From Oscillospiraceae bacterium (GTDB taxonomy: Bacteria > Bacillota > Clostridia > Oscillospirales > Oscillospiraceae), in assembly GCA_902791215.1 (NCBI GenBank), contig CADAUZ010000016.1:1-49245 (forward strand): a stretch of 49,245 nt of DNA, in the 5' to 3' direction. Within the stretch, counting starts at the first letter, position 1. Each line of letters starts with the position of its first letter. The notes beneath the pieces were generated by a model. It had not been told where the DNA came from. It saw only the letters and a list, made by a program, of their open reading frames with translations, and made no database searches. Below, in pieces: positions 17,019-30,916 of this stretch. The position numbers were made by a program, and so were the translations under genes.

Positions 17019-18239
17019 ATGAATAACAATGAAATCAAGAAAATCGTGCTTGCCTATTCCGGCGGCCTGGATACTTCCGTTATCATCCCCTGGCTGAAGG
17101 AAAACTACAATAATCCCGAGATCATCGCCGTGGCCGGCAACGTCGGTCAGGTCGGCGAGCTGGACGGCCTGGAGGAAAAGGCCATCAAAACCGGCGCAAG
17201 CAAGTTTTACGCCCTGGACCTTGCCGACGAGATGGTCAACGATGTGATCATCCCTTGCGTGCAGGCCGGCGCCAAATATGAGGACTACCTGCTGGGCACC
17301 GCTTTTGCCCGTCCCATCATCGCCAAGGGCCTGGTGGAGATCGCGCTCAAGGAAGGCGCCGACGCCATCGCCCACGGCTGCACCGGCAAGGGCAACGACC
17401 AGGTCCGCTTCGAGCTTGCCATCAAGCACTTCGCCCCCGACATGAAGGTCATTGCCCCCTGGCGTGAGTGGTCCATCAAGTCCCGCGAGGAGGAGATCGA
17501 CTACGCCGAGGCCCACCACGTGCCCCTCAAGATCAGCCGCGAGACCAACTACTCCAAGGACAAAAACCTGTGGCACCTGAGCCACGAGGGTCTGGACCTC
17601 GAAGATCCGTGGAATGAGCCGCAGTACGAAAAGCCGGGCTTTCTCGAAATGGGCGTGAGCCCCATCGACGCGCCCGACGCCCCCGAGTACATCACGCTGG
17701 ACTTTGAAAAGGGCGTGCCCGTGTCCCTCAACGGCGAGAAGATGAGCGCCACGGATATCATCTGGAAGCTCAACGACATCGGCGGCAAGCACGGCATTGG
17801 TTTGCTCGATATCGTGGAAAACAGGCTCGTCGGCATGAAGTGCCGCGGCGTGTACGAGACCCCGGGCGGCACGATCCTGTACGCGGCCCACGCGGCGCTC
17901 GAGACCCTGTGCCTCGACAAGATGACGGCCCACAAAAAGCAGGAGCTGAGCGTCTGCTTTGCCGAGCTTCTCTATAACGGCCAGTGGTTCAGCCCCCTGC
18001 GTGAGGCGCTCTCCGCCTTCGTGACCGCGACGCAGAAAAACGTCACCGGCACGGTCAAGCTCAAGCTCTACAAGGGCAACATCATCAAGGCCGGCATCAA
18101 GAGCCCGTACTCCCTCTACTCCGAGAACATCGCCACCTTCGGCGAGAGCGATTACGACCAGGCCCAGGCCGCGGGCTTCATCAATCTCTGGGGCCTGCCC
18201 ACCACGGTCCAGGCGCTGATGGAGCAGGGGAAGCTGTAA
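17019..18239 (+). CDS. argG: Argininosuccinate synthase
   Basis: A 406-residue ArgG that joins citrulline and aspartate with ATP to make argininosuccinate, the penultimate step of arginine synthesis. The nucleotide-binding P-loop [10 protein letters not shown] lies at the N-terminus (about residues 10-19), and the citrulline/aspartate-binding [14 protein letters not shown] is present (about 117-130). The start at 17019 is chosen because GGAGG lies eight bases upstream and the family starts here; a longer reading would extend through the promoter. It is followed by a composite intergenic repeat and argH, so the two steps are encoded together. Length is normal for the family. Confidence 0.97.
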
Positions 18240-18499: not shown

Positions 18500-19876
<1,377 letters not shown>

Positions 19877-19890
19877 AAGGAGACATTACA

Positions 19891-20658
19891 ATGAAAAAAA
19901 CATTTGCAATGCTGCTGGCCCTGAGCATGATTTTTGCCCTCACTCTGAGCGTCCCGGCCTCCGCCGCCGACACCCTCACCATGGCGACCAGCCCCGACTT
20001 TCCTCCCTTTGAGGAGCTGCAGAGCGACGGCAGCGTCGTCGGCATTGAAGTTGACCTCTTGAATATGATCTGCGACAAGCTCGGCATGGAGCTCAAGATC
20101 GAGCAGATGGACTTCGACTCTGTCCTCCCCGGCGTGCAGGCGGGCAAGTACGATGTAGGCGTGTCCGGCATCTCCGTGACCGAGAAGAGGCAGAAGAACG
20201 TCCTCTTCACTGAGCCCTACTGCCTCGCGGCCCAGGCCATCGTCGTGAACACCGGCAGCGACATCACCGGCAAGGCCGACCTTGACAAGAAAAAGATCGC
20301 CGTCCAGACCGGCACCACCGCCGAGAGCTTCTGCATGGAAAACGGCTACAAGGTCTCCTCCTTCCAGGCAAACTCCGATGCGGAGATGGCCCTTGTCACC
20401 GGCAAGGTCGACGCCTGGGTCATTGACGACCTGACGGCGGCCGAGATGGTCAAAGCCTACAACAAGGATCATCCCGACGCCCTGACCATTCTGGACGAGG
20501 CCATGACCACCGAGCCCTACGCCTTCGCCTTTGCCTTCGGCAGCGAGGACCTGGTTGCGAAGATCAACGAGATCCAGGCGGAGCTCATCAAGGACGGCAC
20601 GGTCGCGGGCCTGTTCGAGAAGTTCGACGCGCCCTACACCTCACCCATTTCAGAGTAA
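19891..20658 (+). CDS. Amino-acid ABC transporter substrate-binding protein
   Basis: A 255-residue periplasmic-type binding protein of the polar/basic amino-acid family (SBP_bac_3). After the signal peptide (cleavage likely after PASA, about residue 25) come SPDFPPFEEL and GIEVDLLNMI, typical ligand-pocket strands, and later VDAWVIDDLTAAEM. The mature protein has no lipobox cysteine, unusual for a Gram-positive binding protein, so how it stays at the surface is unclear. The start at 19891 has AAAGGAG upstream. Permease and ATPase genes follow after a repeat. Its place among arginine genes suggests arginine, ornithine, citrulline or glutamine as ligand, which the sequence does not settle. Confidence 0.9.
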   Translation: MKKTFAMLLALSMIFALTLSVPASAADTLTMATSPDFPPFEELQSDGSVVGIEVDLLNMICDKLGMELKIEQMDFDSVLPGVQAGKYDVGVSGISVTEKRQKNVLFTEPYCLAAQAIVVNTGSDITGKADLDKKKIAVQTGTTAESFCMENGYKVSSFQANSDAEMALVTGKVDAWVIDDLTAAEMVKAYNKDHPDALTILDEAMTTEPYAFAFAFGSEDLVAKINEIQAELIKDGTVAGLFEKFDAPYTSPISE

Positions 20659-20659
20659 G

Positions 20660-20865
20660 CTCTTGGCTCCCCCTCTGGGGGAGCTGTCGCGAAGCGACTG
20701 AGAGGGTGTCCGTTGACGAGAAAGACCCCTTCCACCGCTGAAGCGGTCAGACAAGCTTGGAATGTCGCGCCGCGCGTCAGTATCCTCCCCCAAACGCCGC
20801 AGGCGGCTGGGGGAGGCAAGTAAGTCCGCACACCCGGGGCAAGTCCCCGGGCTTGCGGCGTCTGT
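20660..20865. repeat. Composite intergenic repeat, copy 2 (inverted)
   Basis: Inverted relative of the repeat at 18244-18482: GGCTCCCCCTCTGGGGGAGC and TGTCGCGAAGCGACTGAGAG, then CACCGCTGAAGCGGTC, then CCCAAACGCCGCAGGCGG. It separates the binding-protein gene from its permease. It lacks the extra middle segment of copy 1. Confidence 0.65.
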
Positions 20866-20879
20866 AAAGGAGAATGCCC

Positions 20880-21566
20880 ATGAGTGCATGGTTTGCAAAG
20901 CTGCACGAAACCTTCATAGAGACCGGCTATTACCGCCTGCTGCTGCAGGGCCTGGGAAACACCCTCATCATGACCCTGGGGGCGCTGTGCATCGGCGTCG
21001 TGATCGGCACGCTCATTGCCGTCATCAAGTACTTTGCCGAGGATGTCCCGGCCCTAAAGCCCCTGGACATGCTGTGCGATCTGTATGTCACGACGATACG
21101 CGGCATCCCGGTGGTGGTGCTGCTGATGATCTTCTTCTATGTCATCATGACCTCCGCCGAGGGTATCACCGTCGGCATCATCGCCTTCGGCATCAACTCC
21201 GGCGCGTACATGGCGGAGCTCATCCGCAGCGGCATAGGCGCCGTCGACAAGGGCCAGATGGAGGCCGGGCGCAGCCTCGGCATGAGCAAGGTGCAGGCCA
21301 TGCGCAAGATCGTCTTTCCCCAGGCAGTGCGCTACATCCTGCCCGCCATCGGCAATGAGATGATCGCCCTTTTGAAGGAGACCTCGGTCGCGGGGTACGT
21401 GGCGGTGGTCGATCTCACCCGCGCGGGAAACCTCGTGCGCAACAACACCTATGACGCCTTCAACCCCCTCATGGCGGTGGCGCTGACCTACCTGCTGCTG
21501 GTGGTGCTGATGTCAAGGGCGCTCAAGAAGCTGGAGAGGAGGCTTGCAAAGAGTGATAAGCGTTAA
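20880..21566 (+). CDS. Amino-acid ABC transporter permease
   Basis: A 228-residue HisM/GlnP-type permease with about five membrane helices. The conserved cytoplasmic EAA loop that docks the ATPase is visible (about 130-160): [20 protein letters not shown]. The RGIPVVVLL region is also typical. I choose the ATG at 20880 over one six bases earlier because AAAGGAG is then seven bases away. The ATPase gene overlaps its last 14 bases. Only one permease is encoded, so a homodimer is likely in the membrane. Confidence 0.93.
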
Positions 21567-22275
21567 GAATCTCAAAAAGGTTTTCGGCGGCAACGAGGCC
21601 CTCAAGGGGGTCAGCGTCGAGATCAACAAGGGGGACGTGATGTGCGTCATCGGCCCCTCCGGCTCGGGCAAGTCCACCTTCCTGCGCTGCCTGAACCTGC
21701 TGGAGCGCCCCGACGGCGGGCAGGTCATCTTTGAGGGCGACGACCTCATGGACAAGCACATAAACCTCAACCAGCACCGGCAGAAGATGGGCATGGTGTT
21801 CCAGCAGTTCAATCTCTTCCCGCACATGACGGTGCTGGAAAACCTCACCTGCGCGCCCATGATGCTCAAGAAGATTGACAAGGCCGCCGCCGAGAAGACC
21901 GCCATGGACTACCTCCAGCGCGTGGGCCTTGCAGACCGCGCCGCGTCTTATCCGAACCAGCTCTCCGGCGGGCAGAAGCAGCGTATCGCCATTGTGCGCG
22001 CGCTGTGCATGGAGCCGGAGGTCATGCTCTTCGACGAGCCCACTTCCGCCCTCGACCCCGAGATGGTCGGCGAGGTGCTGGATGTCATGAAGAAGCTTGC
22101 CGAGCAGGGCATGACGATGGTGGTGGTCACCCACGAGATGGGCTTTGCCCGTGAGGTGGGAAACCGCGTCCTCTTCATGGACAACGGCCTCATCGTCGAG
22201 GAGGGCACTCCAGAGCAGATCTTCGAGCACCCCAAGAGCGAGAGACTGCAGAGCTTTTTATCGAAAGTACTGTAG
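21553..22275 (+). CDS. Amino-acid ABC transporter ATP-binding protein
   Basis: A 240-residue GlnQ/HisP-type ATPase. It has Walker [10 protein letters not shown], the Q-loop ([16 protein letters not shown]), the signature LSGGQKQR, Walker [13 protein letters not shown] and the H-loop [12 protein letters not shown], all intact. Two starts are possible: TTG at 21544, only one base from AGGAGG, and GTG at 21553, ten bases away. I prefer the GTG because the protein then begins [12 protein letters not shown], exactly where the family begins. It powers uptake by the preceding permease and binding protein. Confidence 0.94.
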
Positions 22276-22629: not shown

Positions 22630-23613
22630 ATGAACCTGCACGGAAGAGATTTTCTCACCCTGCTTGATTTTACACCGGATGAAATCACCGGCCTTCTGGA
22701 TCTCGCCGCCGAGCTCAAGGCGAAGAAGAAGGCCGGTATTCCCCATAGAATGCACGAGGGCAAGAACATCGCCCTGATCTTTGAAAAGACCAGCACCCGT
22801 ACCCGCTGCTCCTTTGAGGTGGCGGCCCACGATCTGGGCATGGGCGTGACCTACCTCGATCCCACCGGCTCCCAGATCGGGAAGAAGGAGAGCATCGCCG
22901 ACACCGCCCGTGTCCTCTCACGCATGTTCGACGGCATCGAGTACCGCGGGTACGGGCAGGAAATCGTCGAGGAGCTGGCAAAGTACGCCTCCGTCCCCGT
23001 GTGGAACGGGCTGACCAACGAATTTCATCCGACGCAGATTTTAGCCGATTTTCTCACGATCAAAGAGCATTTCGGCAAGCTCTCCGGCATCAAGCTCGTG
23101 TATCTCGGCGACGCGCGCTATAACATGGGCGATTCCCTCATGGTGGGCTGCGCCAAAATGGGCATGCACTTTGTCGCCGCCGCGCCGGAGAAATATTTCC
23201 CCGACCCCGCGCTCATCGAAAAATGCCGGGCCATCGCAGCCGAGACCGGCGCGGTGCTGGAATTCGAGACCGACCCCGTCAAGGCGGTGCAGGGCGCGCA
23301 TGTGCTGTATACCGACGTGTGGGTCTCCATGGGCGAGCCTATGGAGGTCTGGGAAGAACGCATCCGCGACCTCGCCCCCTACCAGGTCAACACCGCCCTC
23401 ATGGAGGCGGCGGGGCAGCAGGCCGTCTTTCTCCACTGCCTGCCCGCCTTCCACGATCTCAAGACCGGGATAGGCAAGGAGATGGGCGAGAAGTTTGGCA
23501 GGACCGAAATGGAAGTAACGGACGCGGTTTTTGAAAGCGCGCAGTCCCTCGTCTTCGACGAGGCGGAAAACCGCATGCACACCATCAAGGCCGTCATGGC
23601 CGCGACACTGTGA
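22630..23613 (+). CDS. argF: Ornithine carbamoyltransferase
   Basis: A 327-residue OTCase that makes citrulline from ornithine and carbamoyl phosphate. The carbamoyl-phosphate site STRTRCSFE (about residues 55-63), the FHPTQ loop and the catalytic HCLPAFHD (about 267-274) are all present. GAAGGAGAAACAACC provides the ribosome site. carA starts four bases after its stop, so the enzyme that makes carbamoyl phosphate and the one that consumes it are co-translated. It could in principle run catabolically, but argG, argH and carAB beside it argue for biosynthesis. Confidence 0.96.
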
Positions 23614-23617
23614 GAAT

Positions 23618-24688
23618 ATGAAAAAAACTTATCTGGTTTTGAATAACGGCCGTGTCTTTGAGGGCACGCGCATCGGCGCCGAGGGCGACGGCCTCGGCGA
23701 GCTGGTGTTCACCACCGGCATGACCGGCTATCTCGAGACCCTGACCGACCCCAGCTACGCCGGGCAGATCATCATGCAGACCTTCCCCCTCATCGGCAAT
23801 TACGGCGTCATCCCCGCGGACTTCGAGGGCCCCTGTCTGGCGAAGGGCTACGTGGTGCGCGAGCTGTGCGAAACGCCCTCCAACTTCCGCAGTGAATACG
23901 CCCTGGACCGCTTCCTCAAGGAACACGGCATCCCCGGCATCTGCGGCGTCGATACCCGCGCCCTCACCCGCATCATCCGGGAGGAGGGCGTTATGAACGC
24001 GCTCATCTGCGACGAGGTCCCTACCGATCTGACGGCGATTCAGTCTTACGCGGTGCTGGGCGGCGTCGCGCAGGCAAGCAGCACCGAGCCGCACGTCTTC
24101 CCTGCCGAGGGCGCGGAGAAGTACCGCGTCGCGCTGCTGGATTACGGCGCGAAGCACCACATTGTCGAAAGTCTCCAGGAGCGCGGCTGCCGCGTGACGG
24201 TGCTGCCCCACGATACGAGCGCCGAAGACGTGATGGCGCTCAGACCCGACGGGCTCATGCTCTCCAACGGCCCCGGCGACCCGAAGGAAAACGTCTTTGA
24301 AATTGAGCAGCTCAAGAAGCTCATGGGGAAGCTCCCCGTTTTCGGCATCTGCCTCGGACACCAGCTTGCGGCCCTCGCCCTCGGCGGCGAGACCGTAAAG
24401 CTCAAGTACGGCCACCGGGGCGCCAATCAGCCCGTGAAGGACCTCAAGACCGGGCGCTGCTTCATCACCAGCCAGAACCACGGCTACGCCGTGGTGGCGG
24501 AGAGCGTGAAGGACATCGCGGAGCTTCGCTACATTAATGCCAACGACTTCAGCTGTGAGGGCCTGGATTATCCGGCGGCGCGGTGCTTTACCGTGCAGTT
24601 TCACCCCGAGGCCAGCGCCGGACCCCATGACACCGGCTTCCTCTTTGACCGCTTTGTATCCATGATGGGAGGCGAGAGCCATGCCTAA
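23618..24688 (+). CDS. carA: Carbamoyl-phosphate synthase small (glutaminase) subunit
   Basis: A 356-residue CarA that releases ammonia from glutamine and channels it to CarB. The N-terminal half is the CPSase small-chain domain (KTYLVLNNGRVFEGTRIG). The C-terminal half is a class I glutamine amidotransferase, with nucleophile cysteine in GICLGHQLA (about residue 248) and the histidine/glutamate pair in VQFHPEAS. The ATG at 23618 follows the argF stop by four bases with only a weak ribosome site, so it probably depends on translational coupling. Its last eight bases overlap carB. It serves both arginine and pyrimidine synthesis unless another carAB exists elsewhere. Confidence 0.96.
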   Translation: MKKTYLVLNNGRVFEGTRIGAEGDGLGELVFTTGMTGYLETLTDPSYAGQIIMQTFPLIGNYGVIPADFEGPCLAKGYVVRELCETPSNFRSEYALDRFLKEHGIPGICGVDTRALTRIIREEGVMNALICDEVPTDLTAIQSYAVLGGVAQASSTEPHVFPAEGAEKYRVALLDYGAKHHIVESLQERGCRVTVLPHDTSAEDVMALRPDGLMLSNGPGDPKENVFEIEQLKKLMGKLPVFGICLGHQLAALALGGETVKLKYGHRGANQPVKDLKTGRCFITSQNHGYAVVAESVKDIAELRYINANDFSCEGLDYPAARCFTVQFHPEASAGPHDTGFLFDRFVSMMGGESHA

Positions 24689-27600
24689 AAATCCGAACAT
24701 CGAAAAGGTGCTGGTCATCGGCTCCGGCCCCATCGTCATCGGCCAGGCGGCGGAGTTTGACTACGCCGGGGCCCAGGCCTGCCGCGTGCTGCGGCAGGAG
24801 GGGATCAAGACCGTGCTCGTTAACTCCAACCCCGCCACCATCATGACCGACAAGCACCTGGCGGACGCCATCTACCTCGAACCTCTCACCGCCCAGACCC
24901 TGACGCGCATCATTGCGCTCGAGCGCCCGGACGGTCTTTTGGCGGGCCTCGGCGGACAGACGGGGCTGACCCTCGCTATGCAATTAACAAAAGACGGGAC
25001 GCTCGAAAAGTACGGCGTGAAGCTCCTGGGGTCCGGCATCGATGCCATCGAGCGGGCCGAGGACCGGGAGCGCTTCCGCGAGACCCTCGCCGAGATGGGT
25101 CAGCCCGTCATCCCCTCCGCCACCTGCGAGGATGTGGAGGGCGCCTTGAAGATCGCTGCCCGGATCGGCTACCCCGTCATCGTGCGCCCGGCCTACACCC
25201 TCGGCGGCACGGGCGGCGGCATCGCCCAGGACGAGGCCGAGCTCGCCTCTATCGCCAAACAGGGCCTCGACCTCTCGCCCATCACCCAGGTGCTGATCGA
25301 AAAATGCGTCTCCGGCTGGAAGGAGATCGAGTTTGAGACTATGCGGGACGCTGCGGGCAACGTCATCGCCGTCTGCTCCATGGAGAATGTCGACCCCGTG
25401 GGCATCCACACGGGCGACTCCATCGTTGTCGCGCCCGCTTTGACGCTTGCGGACAAGGAGTACCAGATGCTCCGCTCGGCGGCATTGAACATCGTGGGCG
25501 CCATCGGCATCGAGGGCGGCTGCAACGTGCAGTTTGCCTTAAACCCTGACAGCTTCGAGTACGCCGTCATTGAGGTAAACCCACGCGTCTCGCGCTCCTC
25601 GGCGCTTGCGTCCAAGGCGACCGGCTACCCCATCGCCAAAATCTCCACCCGCATCGCCCTGGGCTATACGCTCGACGAGATCAAGAACGACATCACCGGC
25701 AAGACCTGTGCCTGCTTTGAGCCGACGGTCGATTACGTGGTGGTCAAGTTCCCCAAGTGGCCCTTTGAGAAGTTCGCCGGGGCCAGCCGCAGGCTCGGCA
25801 CCCAGATGAAGGCCACCGGCGAGGTCATGGCCATCGCCCCGTCCTTTGAGATGGCGCTGATGAAGGCCGTGCGCGGGGCGGAGCTGGGACTTGACACCCT
25901 GAATGCCGCGCCGCTGAGTGACGCGCCGCTTGCCGAGCGCCTCGCCGCCCAGGACGACCGCCGCCTATTCACCGTCTTTGAAGCGCTCAAGGCAGGCATG
26001 ACGGTGGATGAAATCTTCAACATCACCAAAATCGACCGCTGGTTTTTGTGGAAAATCCAGAAGCTCGCGGCTTTTGAGGAACAGATCAAAAACGGCCTTT
26101 CCGACGCGGACTACAAAAAAGGCAAGCTTTTGGGCTACACCGACGATACCCTCTGCCGCCTGTCCGGAGCTTCTTCCGTCCCCGGCATGGAGATGCACTA
26201 CAAGATGGTGGACACCTGCGGCGCGGAGTTTGACGCCGAGACGCCGTACTTCTATTCCACCTTTGATGAAGAGTGCGAAAGCCGCCTCTTCCCGCGCTCG
26301 GGAAAGCCCGTGGTCATGGTCCTCGGCTCCGGCCCCATCCGCATCGGCCAGGGCATCGAGTTTGACTACTCCTCGGTGCACTGCGTCTGGACGCTGCGGG
26401 AGATGGGCTACGATGTGGTCATTGTCAACAATAACCCCGAGACCGTCTCCACCGACTACGATACCGCCGACAGGCTTTACTTTGAGCCGCTTTGCAAAGA
26501 GGACGTGTGGAACATCGTCCAGCTCGAAAAACCCGTGGGTGTGGTGGTCGCCTTCGGCGGACAGACCGCCATCAAGCTCACGGAGTTTCTGGACAAAAAG
26601 GGCGTGCAGATCCTCGGCACCTCCGCCGAGAGTATCGACACGGCCGAGGACCGCGCCAAATTTGACGCGCTGCTGGAGCGCTTCGGCATCCGCCGTCCCA
26701 AAGGCAAGGGCGTCCTGACGCTGGATGAGGCGCTGAACGCCGCCGAGGAGCTGGGCTACCCTGTGCTCCTGCGCCCGAGCTACGTCATCGGCGGGCAGAA
26801 CATGTGCATCTCCCGTGATAGGGCCAGCACCGAAAAATACATGGCGGGCATCCTCGCCCAGGGCATTGAAAACCCCGTGCTGGTGGATAAGTACATGCCC
26901 GGTACCGAGCTGGAGGTCGATGTCATTTCCGATGGGGAGGACGTGCTCATCCCCGGCATCATGGAGCATATCGAGCGCGCGGGCGTGCACAGCGGCGACT
27001 CCATTGCCGTCTACCCGCCCTATAACCTGAGCGACAAGTTTCTGCGCCGCATTACCGACGTGTCCGAAAAGCTGGCCCTCGCCCTCGGGACAAAGGGCCT
27101 TGTGAACATCCAGTACCTCATCTGGCAGGACGAGCTGTACGTCATCGAGGTAAACCCCCGCGCCTCGCGCACCGTGCCATACATCAGCAAGGTCACGAAC
27201 GTGCCGATGGTGGATCTCGCCTCCCGCATCATGCTGGGGGAGAAGCTCGCCGATCTCGGCTGGGGCACGGGACTCTATCGCACGCCGCCCTACTACGCCG
27301 TGAAAGTGCCGGTCTTCTCCTTTGAAAAGCTCTCGGACGCCAATTCCATCCTTGGCCCGGAGATGAAATCCACCGGTGAGGTGTTGGGCCTTGGCCGCAC
27401 GCTGGCGGAAGCCCTGTTCAAGGGCCTCACCGCCGCGGGCTTCAAGCTGCCGGACGCCTTCGGCCCGCACGGGGTACTGCTCAGCGTGGAGAATGAGGAC
27501 AGCCAGGAGATCCTGTCCCTCGCCCGGCGCTTTTATGAGCTGGGACTCACGCTTTACGCAACGACGGACACCGCCGCCGCCATCGCCTCTCTGGGCATCC

Positions 27601-28694
27601 CGGTCCGGTCGGTGGAGACGCAGGAGGTCACACCGCTCATGGAGAGCGGCAAGCTTCGCTACATCGTCTATACCGGCGCTGTCAAGGACGGCACCATGGG
27701 CGACTACATTGCCCTGCACCGCCGGGCCATGCAGCTCGGCATCCCGTGCCTGACCTCGCTGGACACCGCAAACGCGCTGGCGGAGATCATTGCCTCGCGC
27801 TTCCACGAGAGCAGCACCGAGCTTGTGGACATCAACGCCATGCGCACCCGCCGCCAGCGCATTTCCTTCACCAAGATGCAGGACTGCGGCAACGACTATA
27901 TCTTTATCGAAAACTTTGACGGCTCCGTCACCTGCCCCGAATCCCTGTGCGTCAATCTCTGCCGCCCCCACACCGGCGTCGGCAGCGACGGCATCGTGCT
28001 GATCGAAAAGTCAAAGGTTGCGGATGTCAAAATGCGCTCCTTCAACCGCGACGGCAGCGAGGGCAAAATGGCGGGCAACAACATCCGCTGCGTGGCAAAG
28101 TACGTCTATGACCGCGGCATCGTGCCGAAGGAGCGCCTCACCGTGGAAACCGGCGGCGGCGTGCGCTCCCTGCGCCTGTTCCTGCGCGACGGCGAGGTCA
28201 GCTCCGTGCAGGTCGACATGGGCAGGGCCAGTCTCAAGGCCGCCAAAATCCCGGCGGTGAGCGATCTTGACACGCTCGTCGACGCCCCCGTCACCATCGG
28301 CGGGAAGGACTATAACGTCACCTGCGTCAATGTCGGCAACCCCCACTGTGTCGTCTTCTGCGACGCCATTGACGGCCTGAACCTGGAAGAAATCGGCCCG
28401 CAGTTCGAGAACGATCCCATGTTCCCCGAGCGGGTGAACACCGAGTTTGTGCGCGTGGTCAACCGCCATACGCTCCGCATGCGCGTCTGGGAGCGCGGCA
28501 GCGGCGAGACCCTCGCCTGCGGGACCGGCGCCTGCGCGGCGGTGGTGGCGGCCTGTGAAAACGGTCTGTGTGACAAGGGCAGCGACGTGAAGGTCAGCGT
28601 CCTCGGCGGCGAGCTCACGGTGAACTACTCGGACGCGCGCGTCCTGCTCACCGGCGGGGCAGGCGTCGTGTACGAAGGAAGCTTCCTGTACTGA
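24681..28694 (+). CDS. carB: CarB-DapF fusion: carbamoyl-phosphate synthase large subunit with C-terminal diaminopimelate epimerase domain
   Basis: A single 1337-codon frame. Residues 1-400 are ATP-grasp domain 1 (VIGSGPIVIGQAAEFDYAG), about 400-540 the oligomerisation region, 541-920 ATP-grasp domain 2 (VLGSGPIRIGQGIEFDYSS), and about 926-1055 the MGS-like regulatory domain. That is a complete CarB. With no stop or linker it continues at residue 1061 into a full-length DapF domain of about 277 residues: FTKMQDCGNDYIF, a DGSEGKMAGNN loop and the C-terminal ACGTGACA. CarB makes carbamoyl phosphate; DapF converts LL- to meso-diaminopimelate for lysine and cell wall. The usual first catalytic cysteine (in CGNG) is alanine here, while the second (ACGTG) is present. 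An internal ATG at 27839 could allow separate DapF synthesis. Overlaps carA by eight bases. Confidence 0.93.
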   Translation: MPKNPNIEKVLVIGSGPIVIGQAAEFDYAGAQACRVLRQEGIKTVLVNSNPATIMTDKHLADAIYLEPLTAQTLTRIIALERPDGLLAGLGGQTGLTLAMQLTKDGTLEKYGVKLLGSGIDAIERAEDRERFRETLAEMGQPVIPSATCEDVEGALKIAARIGYPVIVRPAYTLGGTGGGIAQDEAELASIAKQGLDLSPITQVLIEKCVSGWKEIEFETMRDAAGNVIAVCSMENVDPVGIHTGDSIVVAPALTLADKEYQMLRSAALNIVGAIGIEGGCNVQFALNPDSFEYAVIEVNPRVSRSSALASKATGYPIAKISTRIALGYTLDEIKNDITGKTCACFEPTVDYVVVKFPKWPFEKFAGASRRLGTQMKATGEVMAIAPSFEMALMKAVRGAELGLDTLNAAPLSDAPLAERLAAQDDRRLFTVFEALKAGMTVDEIFNITKIDRWFLWKIQKLAAFEEQIKNGLSDADYKKGKLLGYTDDTLCRLSGASSVPGMEMHYKMVDTCGAEFDAETPYFYSTFDEECESRLFPRSGKPVVMVLGSGPIRIGQGIEFDYSSVHCVWTLREMGYDVVIVNNNPETVSTDYDTADRLYFEPLCKEDVWNIVQLEKPVGVVVAFGGQTAIKLTEFLDKKGVQILGTSAESIDTAEDRAKFDALLERFGIRRPKGKGVLTLDEALNAAEELGYPVLLRPSYVIGGQNMCISRDRASTEKYMAGILAQGIENPVLVDKYMPGTELEVDVISDGEDVLIPGIMEHIERAGVHSGDSIAVYPPYNLSDKFLRRITDVSEKLALALGTKGLVNIQYLIWQDELYVIEVNPRASRTVPYISKVTNVPMVDLASRIMLGEKLADLGWGTGLYRTPPYYAVKVPVFSFEKLSDANSILGPEMKSTGEVLGLGRTLAEALFKGLTAAGFKLPDAFGPHGVLLSVENEDSQEILSLARRFYELGLTLYATTDTAAAIASLGIPVRSVETQEVTPLMESGKLRYIVYTGAVKDGTMGDYIALHRRAMQLGIPCLTSLDTANALAEIIASRFHESSTELVDINAMRTRRQRISFTKMQDCGNDYIFIENFDGSVTCPESLCVNLCRPHTGVGSDGIVLIEKSKVADVKMRSFNRDGSEGKMAGNNIRCVAKYVYDRGIVPKERLTVETGGGVRSLRLFLRDGEVSSVQVDMGRASLKAAKIPAVSDLDTLVDAPVTIGGKDYNVTCVNVGNPHCVVFCDAIDGLNLEEIGPQFENDPMFPERVNTEFVRVVNRHTLRMRVWERGSGETLACGTGACAAVVAACENGLCDKGSDVKVSVLGGELTVNYSDARVLLTGGAGVVYEGSFLY

Positions 28695-29000: not shown

Positions 29001-30497
29001 TCAAGCCTCGGCGTCTCTTGCGCGGGAGCGCATCACGAAGAGCACCGCAAGGATCATCGCCGCGCCGATGAGCAGGCACACGGCCCAGCTGCGGATAAAG
29101 CCCGCGATGATGTAGCACACGAAGCTCACGCCCGCGACGGTCAGCGCGTAGGGCAGCTGCGTGGAGACGTGGGAGATGTGGTTGACGTTGGCGCCGGCGG
29201 AGGCCATGATGGTCGTGTCGGAGATGGGGGAGCAGTGGTCGCCGCAGACAGCGCCCGCGAGGCAGGCGGAAATGCCGATCATCAGAAGGTCGGGGTTATT
29301 CTGGAACACGGGCAGCACGATCGGGATCAGGATGCCGAAGGTGCCCCAGCTCGTGCCGGTGGAGAACGCAAGGCCCAGGGCCACGAGGAAAATCACGGCG
29401 GGCAGCATGCTGAACAGGCCCGCGGCCGCGCCCTCGACGAGGCCGGCCACATAGTCGGCAGCGCCCAGCAGGCCCGTGATGTTCTTGAGCGTCAGGGCAA
29501 AGGTGAGGATCAGCATGGCGGGCACCATGGCGATGAAGCCCTTGGTGATGCAGCCGGTCGCGTCCTTGAAGCTGATGACGCGGCGGCAGAGCAGGTAGAC
29601 GAAGGTGAACATCACGGCGATGATGCTGCCCCAGGGCAGACCGACGGAGGCGTCGGTGTCGGCGAAGGAGTCGATGAGGCTTGCGCCGTCCCAGAAGCCG
29701 CCGACGTACATCATGCCGACAATGCAGCAGATGATGAGCACGATCACGGGGATCAGCATGTCCCAGATGGAGGCGCGGGGGACGTTCTGCTCATCCTCGT
29801 TGCCGAGGGCGCCGAGCTCGCCGCGGGCGGCGGCCAGCTCCGCCTTGGCCATGGGACCGTAGTCGAAGCCCAGCACGGACAGGGCGATGACGAACACGAT
29901 GGTCAGCAGGGAGTAGAAGTTATAGGGGATGGCCCGGATGAACAGCTGGATGCCGGAGATGCCGGAGTCCAGATCCTGTGCGGTGGCGGAGACGGCAGCG
30001 GCCCAGGACGAGACCGGCGCGATCATGCACACGGGCGCTGCGGTGGCGTCGATGATGTAGGCAAGCTTCGCGCGCGAGATCTTGTGGCTGTCGGTGACGG
30101 GGCGCATGACGGAGCCCACGGTCAGGCAGTTGAAATAGTCGTCGATGAAGATCAGCACGCCCAGCAGGAAGGTGGCGAGCATGGCGCCCGTGCGGGTGTG
30201 GACATGTTTGACGGCCCAGCGCCCGAAAGCGGCGGAGCCGCCGGCGGCGTTGACGAGCGCCACCATGATGCCGAGCAGGACGAGGAACATGAAAATGCCC
30301 GCGTTCCAGCCGTCGGCAATGGCGCCGATGAAGCCGTCGGAGATCATGGTGTCGAGGGAGTCGACGAGATTGAAGCCGCCCACAAACAGCGAGCCGACCA
30401 CAATGCCGATGAACAGGGACGAATAGGTCTCCTTGGTGATGAGGGCGAGGACGATCGCCACGATGGGCGGTACCAGGGCCCAGAAAGTTCCAGCCAT
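29001..30497 (-). CDS. NhaC-family antiporter, probable lysine transporter (LysW type)
   Basis: A 498-residue membrane protein with about twelve hydrophobic helices, of the NhaC Na+/H+ antiporter family. Recognisable stretches include FIDDYFNCLTVGSVMRPVTD and the C-terminal GDHCSPISDTTIM. Many such proteins under lysine riboswitches are thought to move lysine rather than only protons and sodium. Here a lysine riboswitch, terminator and strong promoter sit directly upstream, which is the main reason for the lysine assignment. The start at 30497 has GGAGG upstream; a longer frame would read through the riboswitch. The gene converges on carB-dapF, whose DapF domain belongs to lysine synthesis. 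Confidence 0.9.
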   Translation of the reverse strand: MAGTFWALVPPIVAIVLALITKETYSSLFIGIVVGSLFVGGFNLVDSLDTMISDGFIGAIADGWNAGIFMFLVLLGIMVALVNAAGGSAAFGRWAVKHVHTRTGAMLATFLLGVLIFIDDYFNCLTVGSVMRPVTDSHKISRAKLAYIIDATAAPVCMIAPVSSWAAAVSATAQDLDSGISGIQLFIRAIPYNFYSLLTIVFVIALSVLGFDYGPMAKAELAAARGELGALGNEDEQNVPRASIWDMLIPVIVLIICCIVGMMYVGGFWDGASLIDSFADTDASVGLPWGSIIAVMFTFVYLLCRRVISFKDATGCITKGFIAMVPAMLILTFALTLKNITGLLGAADYVAGLVEGAAAGLFSMLPAVIFLVALGLAFSTGTSWGTFGILIPIVLPVFQNNPDLLMIGISACLAGAVCGDHCSPISDTTIMASAGANVNHISHVSTQLPYALTVAGVSFVCYIIAGFIRSWAVCLLIGAAMILAVLFVMRSRARDAEA

Positions 30498-30514
30498 ACA
30501 GTTTTCCTCCAAAC

Positions 30515-30549
30515 AAAAAAGATCATGGACAAGGCTGAGCCTGTTCATG
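30515..30549 (-). terminator. Riboswitch-controlled intrinsic terminator
   Basis: On the minus strand, arms CATGAACAGGCT and AGCCTTGTCCATG, then ATCTTTTTT, between the lysine aptamer and the transporter start. It is the expected expression platform: lysine bound, transcription stops. Confidence 0.75.
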
Positions 30550-30577
30550 ACCGTCTGTGTGCGGGTTTCCCCGTGGG

Positions 30578-30742
30578 TCTGACAGCTCTCCGCGGATGCG
30601 ACAGTACGCAGGATATTCTCCCGCGTCCCAGGCATACCGGCCCGGAAAAGCCGATACCCTTCGGCGGCGTCCCCTTTCACTCCGCTGCAATTTCCGTCGC
30701 GCAATGCGGGAGCTACTGATGTCGGCCGCGCCTCTATCATGC
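30578..30742 (-). promoter_or_regulatory. Lysine riboswitch (L box)
   Basis: The minus-strand leader carries the L-box blocks in order: GATAGAGGCGCGG, CAGTAGC, GAGTGAAAGGGGACGCC followed by GCCGAAGG, then CTGGGACGC, TACTGTCGC and finally GGAGAGCTGTC pairing back to the first block. This order and sequence is specific to the lysine aptamer. It lies between a promoter and a terminator ahead of the NhaC-family gene, so excess lysine should shut off the transporter. Confidence 0.88.
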
Positions 30743-30759
30743 CTTGTTCAATTGCCCTC

Positions 30760-30787
30760 ATTATAATCGGGTTTAAGCTTTTGTCAA
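30760..30787 (-). promoter_or_regulatory. Consensus promoter of the lysine riboswitch gene
   Basis: TTGACA (30782-30787), 16-base spacer, TATAAT (30760-30765) on the minus strand: a perfect match to both sigma-A boxes. The aptamer begins about 20 bases downstream. Confidence 0.85.
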
Positions 30788-30916
30788 GGCTTGACAAAAA
30801 GCCCCGTATAAATTTGGTTCATTTGCCAGATTTGCGGTGTTCTTCACCGCTTTGCACTGGTGAAGATGATAAAGGCTTTTTCCGGTTCCCTTGAAAATGG
30901 TACATAAGAATTTCGC

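Follow-up and report, generated by a model that had tools for sequence, protein, structure and literature searches.

Carbamoyl-phosphate synthase (CPS) is a textbook allosteric enzyme, and it responds to its known effectors UMP, IMP, ornithine and N-acetylglutamate (NAG) through its C-terminal end. NAG switches human CPS1 from a site in the C-terminal domain (PMC4655335), and in E. coli CPS ornithine and UMP/IMP act at the MGS region (PMC6245113). We describe here a CPS large subunit, CarB, to which a domain of the diaminopimelate (DAP) epimerase DapF is joined behind the MGS domain, encoded as a single open frame, carB::dapF (24681-28694, + strand, 1337 residues), in a 49,245-nucleotide stretch of DNA from an Oscillospiraceae bacterium (contig CADAUZ010000016.1; the window). 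The domain sits where CPS effectors act, and we think that it became a regulatory or structural module of arginine CPS that binds DAP. The fused domain has lost one of the two catalytic cysteines of DapF and keeps the residues of its ligand pocket.

By analogy with CPS1, an amino-acid-like effector would again act through the C-terminal end of the synthase, although CPS1 binds its effector with its own C-terminal domain, whereas here a further, DapF-derived domain would do so (PMC4655335). A DapF acting as regulator has a precedent in E. coli, where it binds RppH and activates it without any need for catalysis, even as the C73&217A form (PMC4227774; 6d13 is among the Foldseek matches of our domain). 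The fused domain may resemble it in this respect, but DapF and RppH are separate proteins, and that DapF is an active epimerase (PMC4227774). PddB, a related racemase, uses two thiols, and its Cys-to-Ser changes leave <0.1% activity, a result that its authors compare with a report on M. tuberculosis DapF (PMC8225329). No paper dealing with a CarB-DapF fusion, judged by title or abstract, was found in the open-licence literature, subscription papers lying outside the coverage. PddB belongs with NF038284 and the O-ureidoserine racemase 7vdy to a set of DapF-like racemases of related sequence or fold, and we know of no fusion to CPS for any of them.

Compared with DapF (TIGR00652, PF01678), the window domain agrees in fold and length and keeps Cys217 and the residues that bind the ligand, but it lacks Cys73 and is covalently attached to CarB. 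The NCBIfam profile for DapF covers residues 1061-1335 of the fusion with 275 bits (cut-off 115), and the domain scored alone reaches 279.9 bits (cut-off 114.65), which places it in the family by profile; CPSaseII_lrg (TIGR01369) covers residues 3-1036 with 1384 bits (cut-off 1027). Both ATP-grasp halves, the oligomerisation domain, MGS and DAP_epimerase are found by Pfam on the same protein, which, with carA present, has the make-up of a glutamine-dependent CPS large subunit. An earlier note on this DNA, made from its sequence alone, had read the frame as one CarB-DapF chain, and the open frame and the profiles for both parts bear this out.

The CarB part (residues 1-1040, 24681-27800, +) resembles an arginine-type CarB in having all CPS domains, carA upstream and argF in the cluster, and is unlike it in bearing an extra C-terminal domain. 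A second, unfused CarB that is 49% identical to it lies elsewhere in the genome (G000:C6:27257-30397; G, C and L numbers are our handles for genomes, contigs and loci), so we take the fused copy as the arginine-pathway CarB; with this paralogue and with argG, argH, argF and carA upstream, it answers to an arginine-specific CPS. In alignments to E. coli CarB, the fused MGS domain lacks the equivalents of Lys993 and Asn1015, the latter of which we take to be a UMP-site residue. Lys993 is reported to be crucial for UMP binding (PMC6245113). Both residues are kept in the unfused paralogue, which is taken as pyrimidine-type because it keeps these UMP-site residues.

Loss of Cys73 and the preserved ligand pocket

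The canonical DapF motif is ...CGNG.RC..., and the corresponding stretch in the window reads MAGNNIRC. Within the DapF domain (residues 1061-1337, 27861-28691, +), an alanine codon, GCG, at residue 1131 (28071-28073, +) stands where DapF has its catalytic Cys73 (H. influenzae numbering); all three solved DapFs shown aligned to the domain have cysteine there, and the second catalytic cysteine, Cys217, is kept at residue 1280 (28518-28520, +). The earlier note had taken the domain for a complete DapF; this holds for the fold, which is full length, but not for the catalytic set, either here or in most of the fused domains that we read.

We read 150 fused domains in total, 64 from a sample of 157 genomes of the order (completeness >=90%), 15 more from 60 relatives (79 together), 26 of the 27 that a class-wide sample added (the exception is G204, where the domain lies at the edge of a contig) and 45 from named records; a few genomes are present twice (L226 and G122; L248 and G108). 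Cys73 is lost in 102 of the 150, the position being Ala in 68, Cys in 48, Gly in 20, Ser in seven, Phe in six and Thr in one, and the Cys217 position is Cys in 145, Ser in three and Asn in two. Among the best 120 proteins listed by the database search described below, the window's included, 119 have Ala at the Cys73 place and one has Ser. Standalone DapFs that were read keep both cysteines: Cys217 is present in all 111 rows and Cys73 in 110, the lone exception being a stray frame of locus L037, whose true DapF reads MCGNGIRC.

The loss is selective. Standalone DapF is 97% or more invariant at 41 positions. Of these, Cys73 is by far the one from which the fused domains depart most (kept in 32%); a Gly of the GxGND loop comes next (51%), then the Met that precedes Cys73 (81%), and the other 38 positions are kept in 87-100%. 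All of the substrate-site residues Asn11, Asn64, Asn157, Asn190, Glu208 and Arg209 are present in the window domain; across the 150 fused domains Asn64, Asn190, Glu208 and Arg209 are kept at 97-99%, and Asn157 is kept in 76 of the 79 from the order sample and the relatives. In Anabaena DapF the residues Asn66, Asn164, Asn197, Glu215 and Arg216 hold the ligand, on which the enzyme closes, and L,L-aziDAP bonds the Cys73 equivalent and D,L-aziDAP the Cys217 equivalent (PMC12039745). The equivalents of these five contacts are among the residues kept in fused domains. Because one thiol is lost and the ligand residues and Cys217 are kept, the domain should bind a DAP-like ligand on the meso-facing side and should not epimerise it.

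Changes at neighbouring sites accompany the loss. Merging identical domains leaves 47 unique ones with Cys73 (two of them lacking Cys217) and 99 without it. Position 74 is Gly or Ala in 46 of the 47 and in 41 of the 99, and the loop Gly at position 8 is present in 40 and 35 respectively, both comparisons being uncorrected for kinship. The presence of Cys73 changes at least nine times among fused domains on a quick DapF tree, and at least five times in a careful subset, counts that do not tell loss from regain; on the quick tree the losses fall on several branches, with different replacement residues.

The Cys73-less domain is under purifying selection in close pairs, as judged from substitution rates. 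Among Cys73-less pairs, the 14 with the smallest dS (0.08-0.44, several pairs sharing members) have a dN/dS of 0.03-0.29, which does not exceed 0.13 in 12 of them and is comparable to the 0.04-0.21 of the ten lowest standalone DapF pairs of like dS. Medians over the whole sets (0.41 for Cys73-less, 0.52 for standalone and 0.32 for Cys73-keeping fused domains) are distorted by saturated dS and are not used. The AF2 model of residues 941-1337 has a mean pLDDT of 84, with 22 of 28 ten-residue DapF blocks at 85 or above, and its best Foldseek matches are DapFs, with a TM-score to target of 0.90 for the ligand-bound 9mro. Having lost a catalytic residue while purifying selection preserves its fold and pocket, the domain is a putative pseudoenzyme.

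Some fused and standalone domains depart from this pattern in their own ways. Phe, not a small residue, replaces Cys73 in L131, L135, L136, L141 and L142 (family f10). An AGNC motif, with a Cys three residues past the lost Cys73, is seen in L109, L115, L118, L119, L121 and others, and this cysteine could be a relocated thiol. The standalone DapFs of the window's genus (L002 and L039-L051) form a divergent subfamily: 11 of the 14 rows show D, S, K, R or E at the Asn157 column, perhaps because an insertion has shifted the alignment there.

Distribution, origin and other routes to meso-DAP

The fusion is not unique to this genome, and like fusions are found in many families of the class. A database search with residues 1061-1337, limited to target proteins of 735-2340 residues, scored the 7993 candidates sharing most words with the query, at least 6763 of which reach E<=0.001 against the DapF region, and the best 120 of these 6763 matches carry both CPSase and DAP_epimerase Pfam domains. 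Where a source names a match, the name is carbamoyl-phosphate synthase large subunit, and the architecture is already in sequence databases under the CarB name. We considered an assembly error or frameshift, which is ruled out by the same fusion in many independent genomes, in Ruminococcus sp. FC2018 (L243), a named record that is not a metagenome-assembled genome (MAG) and is taken for an isolate, and in a one-contig genome (G356). In the window's genus, all 13 of 13 other genomes with an arginine-type carB reaching the 3' end are fused (the count excludes G022, whose gene is cut off at the end of its contig, and short fragments, which stayed unclassed). In the order sample 132 of 157 genomes have DapF matches of any kind, and in the class-wide sample of 243 genomes at least 30 have a DapF match in a frame longer than 1000 residues (E<=1e-60). 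The earlier note had allowed that related genomes might always have carB and dapF apart, and relatives in the genus and order are found with the two joined.

Fusions with Cys73 lost also appear in MAGs labelled as other groups, titled Treponema or Spirochaetaceae (L240, L259 and L263) or Gracilibacteraceae (L287 and L299), and may reflect horizontal transfer or mis-binning; a carA match lies alongside the fusion in L240, L259, L287 and L299 and is absent for L263. At L155 (G191:C64:50500-62500) a carB::dapF with both cysteines is followed, some 2.1 kb downstream and on the same strand, by a standalone dapF.

On a tree of 68 CarBs (46 fused and 22 unfused; quick IQ-TREE with a mixture model, rooted on the unfused paralogue), all 46 fused CarBs fall in one clade (SH-aLRT 100), and fusion state changes three times, as one fusion and two nested losses of the DapF domain, in G038 and in the group G054/G076/G102/G147. 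The single origin rests on this CarB tree. Trees built from DapF give a less clear picture: a quick one with 235 rows also places all 124 fused domains in one clade (SH-aLRT 92), and a careful tree of 72 rows places three standalone DapFs weakly inside the fused group.

A second DapF with both cysteines, above the profile cut-off, is encoded elsewhere in the window genome (G000:C6:78826-79632), and this rules out the fused copy as its sole DapF. We scored a genome of the order sample as having another route to meso-DAP if it encodes a standalone DapF and/or a meso-DAP dehydrogenase (Ddh, TIGR01921 over cut-off), leaving out G178 (degenerate domain) and G081 (partial match) and counting G152 as fused though its frame is cut at 378 residues and its carB piece is cut too. 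Another route is present in 44 of 45 Cys73-less genomes, the exception being G063, where the domain lies at a contig end, and in 12 of 17 two-cysteine genomes, the five without one being G037, G061, G092, G121 and G150, whose lack of DapF is confirmed by the TIGR00652 profile. Two further genomes keep Cys73 and lack Cys217, G041 with no other route and G155 with the dehydrogenase. The class sample, with thresholds of 1e-60 for DapF and 1e-40 for the dehydrogenase and with second DapFs counted by match, their cysteines unread, has another route in 13 of 13 Cys73-less and 11 of 13 two-cysteine genomes. For the order and class samples together, another route is found in 57 of 58 Cys73-less genomes, and none is found in seven of 30 two-cysteine genomes.

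Possible roles of the fused domain

We propose, with about even confidence, that an ancestrally active fused epimerase has become a ligand-binding, non-racemising domain on the arginine CPS, probably sensing meso-DAP. The course of events would be that dapF was joined to the 3' end of an arginine-pathway carB in an ancestor of these Clostridia, and that the fused domain was at first a working DAP epimerase, as it may still be in several lineages in which no other way to meso-DAP is visible. In lineages with another DapF or Ddh, catalysis would often have been given up through loss of the Cys73 thiol, with the clamp and Cys217 kept. In the window lineage the product would most likely be a pseudo-epimerase: it would bind, but not racemise, a diamino acid resembling DAP, probably meso (D,L)-DAP. 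Closure of the clamp on this ligand would reach the CPS active sites by way of the MGS domain next to it, so that arginine-directed carbamoyl phosphate would be tuned to lysine and cell-wall status. A diamino acid such as meso-DAP is the signal that the preserved pocket suggests. It is possible that the DapF domain reports nitrogen status, as the earlier note imagined, and the note's suspicion that DapF had been recruited beyond its own step is supported. A more specific form, which we offer tentatively, is a one-sided DAP-sensing switch in which the LL-DAP-facing thiol has been repeatedly dropped and the meso-DAP-facing thiol kept, through which lysine and peptidoglycan synthesis would act allosterically on the arginine CPS of many gut Clostridia.

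Several observations weigh against this proposal, in which the loss of epimerase activity, the binding of a ligand, the allosteric coupling and the order of events are the parts that we infer. In the relatives-only sample another route is found in eight of 15 Cys73-less genomes and is lacking in seven, which brings the count for all three sets to 65 of 73; those seven (G002, G003, G010, G016, G018, G027 and G028) belong to the window's genus, are 57-95% complete and have no second DapF by profile and no Ddh, and in them the fused domain might still be working. G012 (99% complete) and G031 (92% complete), of the same genus, have no DapF by profile and no Ddh, and since G012 is without either at 99% completeness, absence is a weak signal. 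The association in the order sample (Fisher's test: any route, p=0.005; standalone DapF, p=0.001) is uncorrected for kinship, and an independent-pairs test of whether Cys73 loss goes with another route has one supported pair (three at most) and no power. Asn11 varies more than the rest of the ligand site, being kept in 87% of fused domains. The domain is not always needed, since it was lost twice on the CarB tree and has decayed further, with the frame still open, in L156 (G070), L158 (G164) and L335 (G178:C26). Loss of the UMP-site residues, finally, could merely reflect dedication to arginine.

The alternatives carry weights that overlap somewhat. The likeliest of them, though we think it rather unlikely, is that the domain is purely structural, a folding, dimerisation or docking piece of the arginine CPS or a platform for a partner, for which ligand binding no longer matters. 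The catalysis-independent activation of RppH by E. coli DapF (PMC4227774) is a precedent for such a part, and the frames of G070 and G164 stay open, with a dN/dS of 0.13 between the two, even though both cysteines and a number of ligand residues are gone. A mere scaffold, however, need not keep the substrate-site asparagines, Glu208 and Arg209 at the levels seen across the fused domains. It is improbable that the domain is a decaying passenger, redundant after the fusion and slowly eroding, and kept since truncation is rare: the two independent domain losses and the degenerate domains of G070, G164 and G178 fit such erosion, but dN/dS is low in close pairs, one residue is targeted where decay would be random, and the domain is there in every other genus genome whose arginine-type carB reaches the 3' end.

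We give still less credence to new chemistry, in which the one-thiol domain would catalyse another diamino-acid reaction such as an elimination or a one-sided proton exchange. PhzF and trans-3-hydroxyproline dehydratase share the fold (Foldseek), the pocket and Cys217 are retained, and a Cys stands at position 74 in 12 of 99 unique Cys73-less domains, but the Cys73 place has no consistent replacement (A, G, S, F or T) and the identified nearby genes hint at no substrate. Equally doubtful is a slow DAP epimerase in which another residue or water replaces the thiol, which would suit the mostly intact substrate residues and the seven genus genomes with no other route found but sits poorly with the inactive E. 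coli C73&217A form (PMC4227774), the <0.1% activity of one-thiol PddB and, per its authors, likewise of M. tuberculosis DapF (PMC8225329), and the separate two-cysteine DapF of the window genome.

On our preferred reading, an enzyme gained a domain from another enzyme, and that domain then lost a catalytic residue. Widespread CPSs with a further, enzyme-derived C-terminal domain would offer a natural experiment in the origin of regulatory domains, with the same catalytic residue lost in several branches and the pocket staying. If DAP sensing is true, arginine synthesis would be linked to the cell wall in gut bacteria. There is also a warning for annotation: the fused domain passes the DapF cut-off in many genomes and should not be counted as an epimerase.

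Junction, arginine cluster and neighbouring genes

Between the CarB part and the DapF domain lie residues 1041-1060 (27801-27860, +), which comprise the CarB C-terminal tail and about five junction residues. Unfused arginine-type CarBs of the same order end in tails that resemble that of the fusion (...VDINTIR in G048 and ...LVDITRL in G052; those of G058 and G038 differ more), and comparison with this LVDI... tail leaves only about five residues between CarB's natural end and the start of DapF. The earlier note's view that there is no linker is thus nearly right, although residues 1040-1055 (100-115 of the model) have low pLDDT. It also proposed that an internal ATG, which lies at 27840-27842 (+) and not at 27839, could give free DapF. 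A Met is present at the junction in 116 of 118 parsable homologues (of 120 listed) and in 89 of 114 parsed fused frames from loci, but a Shine-Dalgarno-like 4-mer precedes it in only eight of the 89, so that free DapF from this codon is unlikely; the ATG looks like part of CarB's own tail and not like a DapF start.

Behind the cluster, at 29001-30797 on the - strand, lies a gene of the Na+/H+ antiporter family, for which the sole NCBIfam name listed is Tet(35)-like at 166.9 bits against a cut-off of 750, and we make no claim of resistance. On the 5' side of the fusion the order of genes, all on the + strand, is argG, argH, three ABC transporter genes, argF and carA. The CPS small subunit gene carA (23618-24688; PRK12838 / TIGR01368) overlaps the start of carB by eight bases and is preceded by argF, for ornithine carbamoyltransferase (22630-23613; TIGR00658). 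Farther upstream are argH, for argininosuccinate lyase (18500-19876; TIGR00838), and argG, for argininosuccinate synthase (17019-18239; TIGR00032 / PRK00509). Between argH and argF, an amino-acid-type ABC transporter (19888-22275) is encoded as a binding protein (19888-20658), a permease (20874-21566) and an ATPase (21544-22275), with equivalog scores below the cut-offs.

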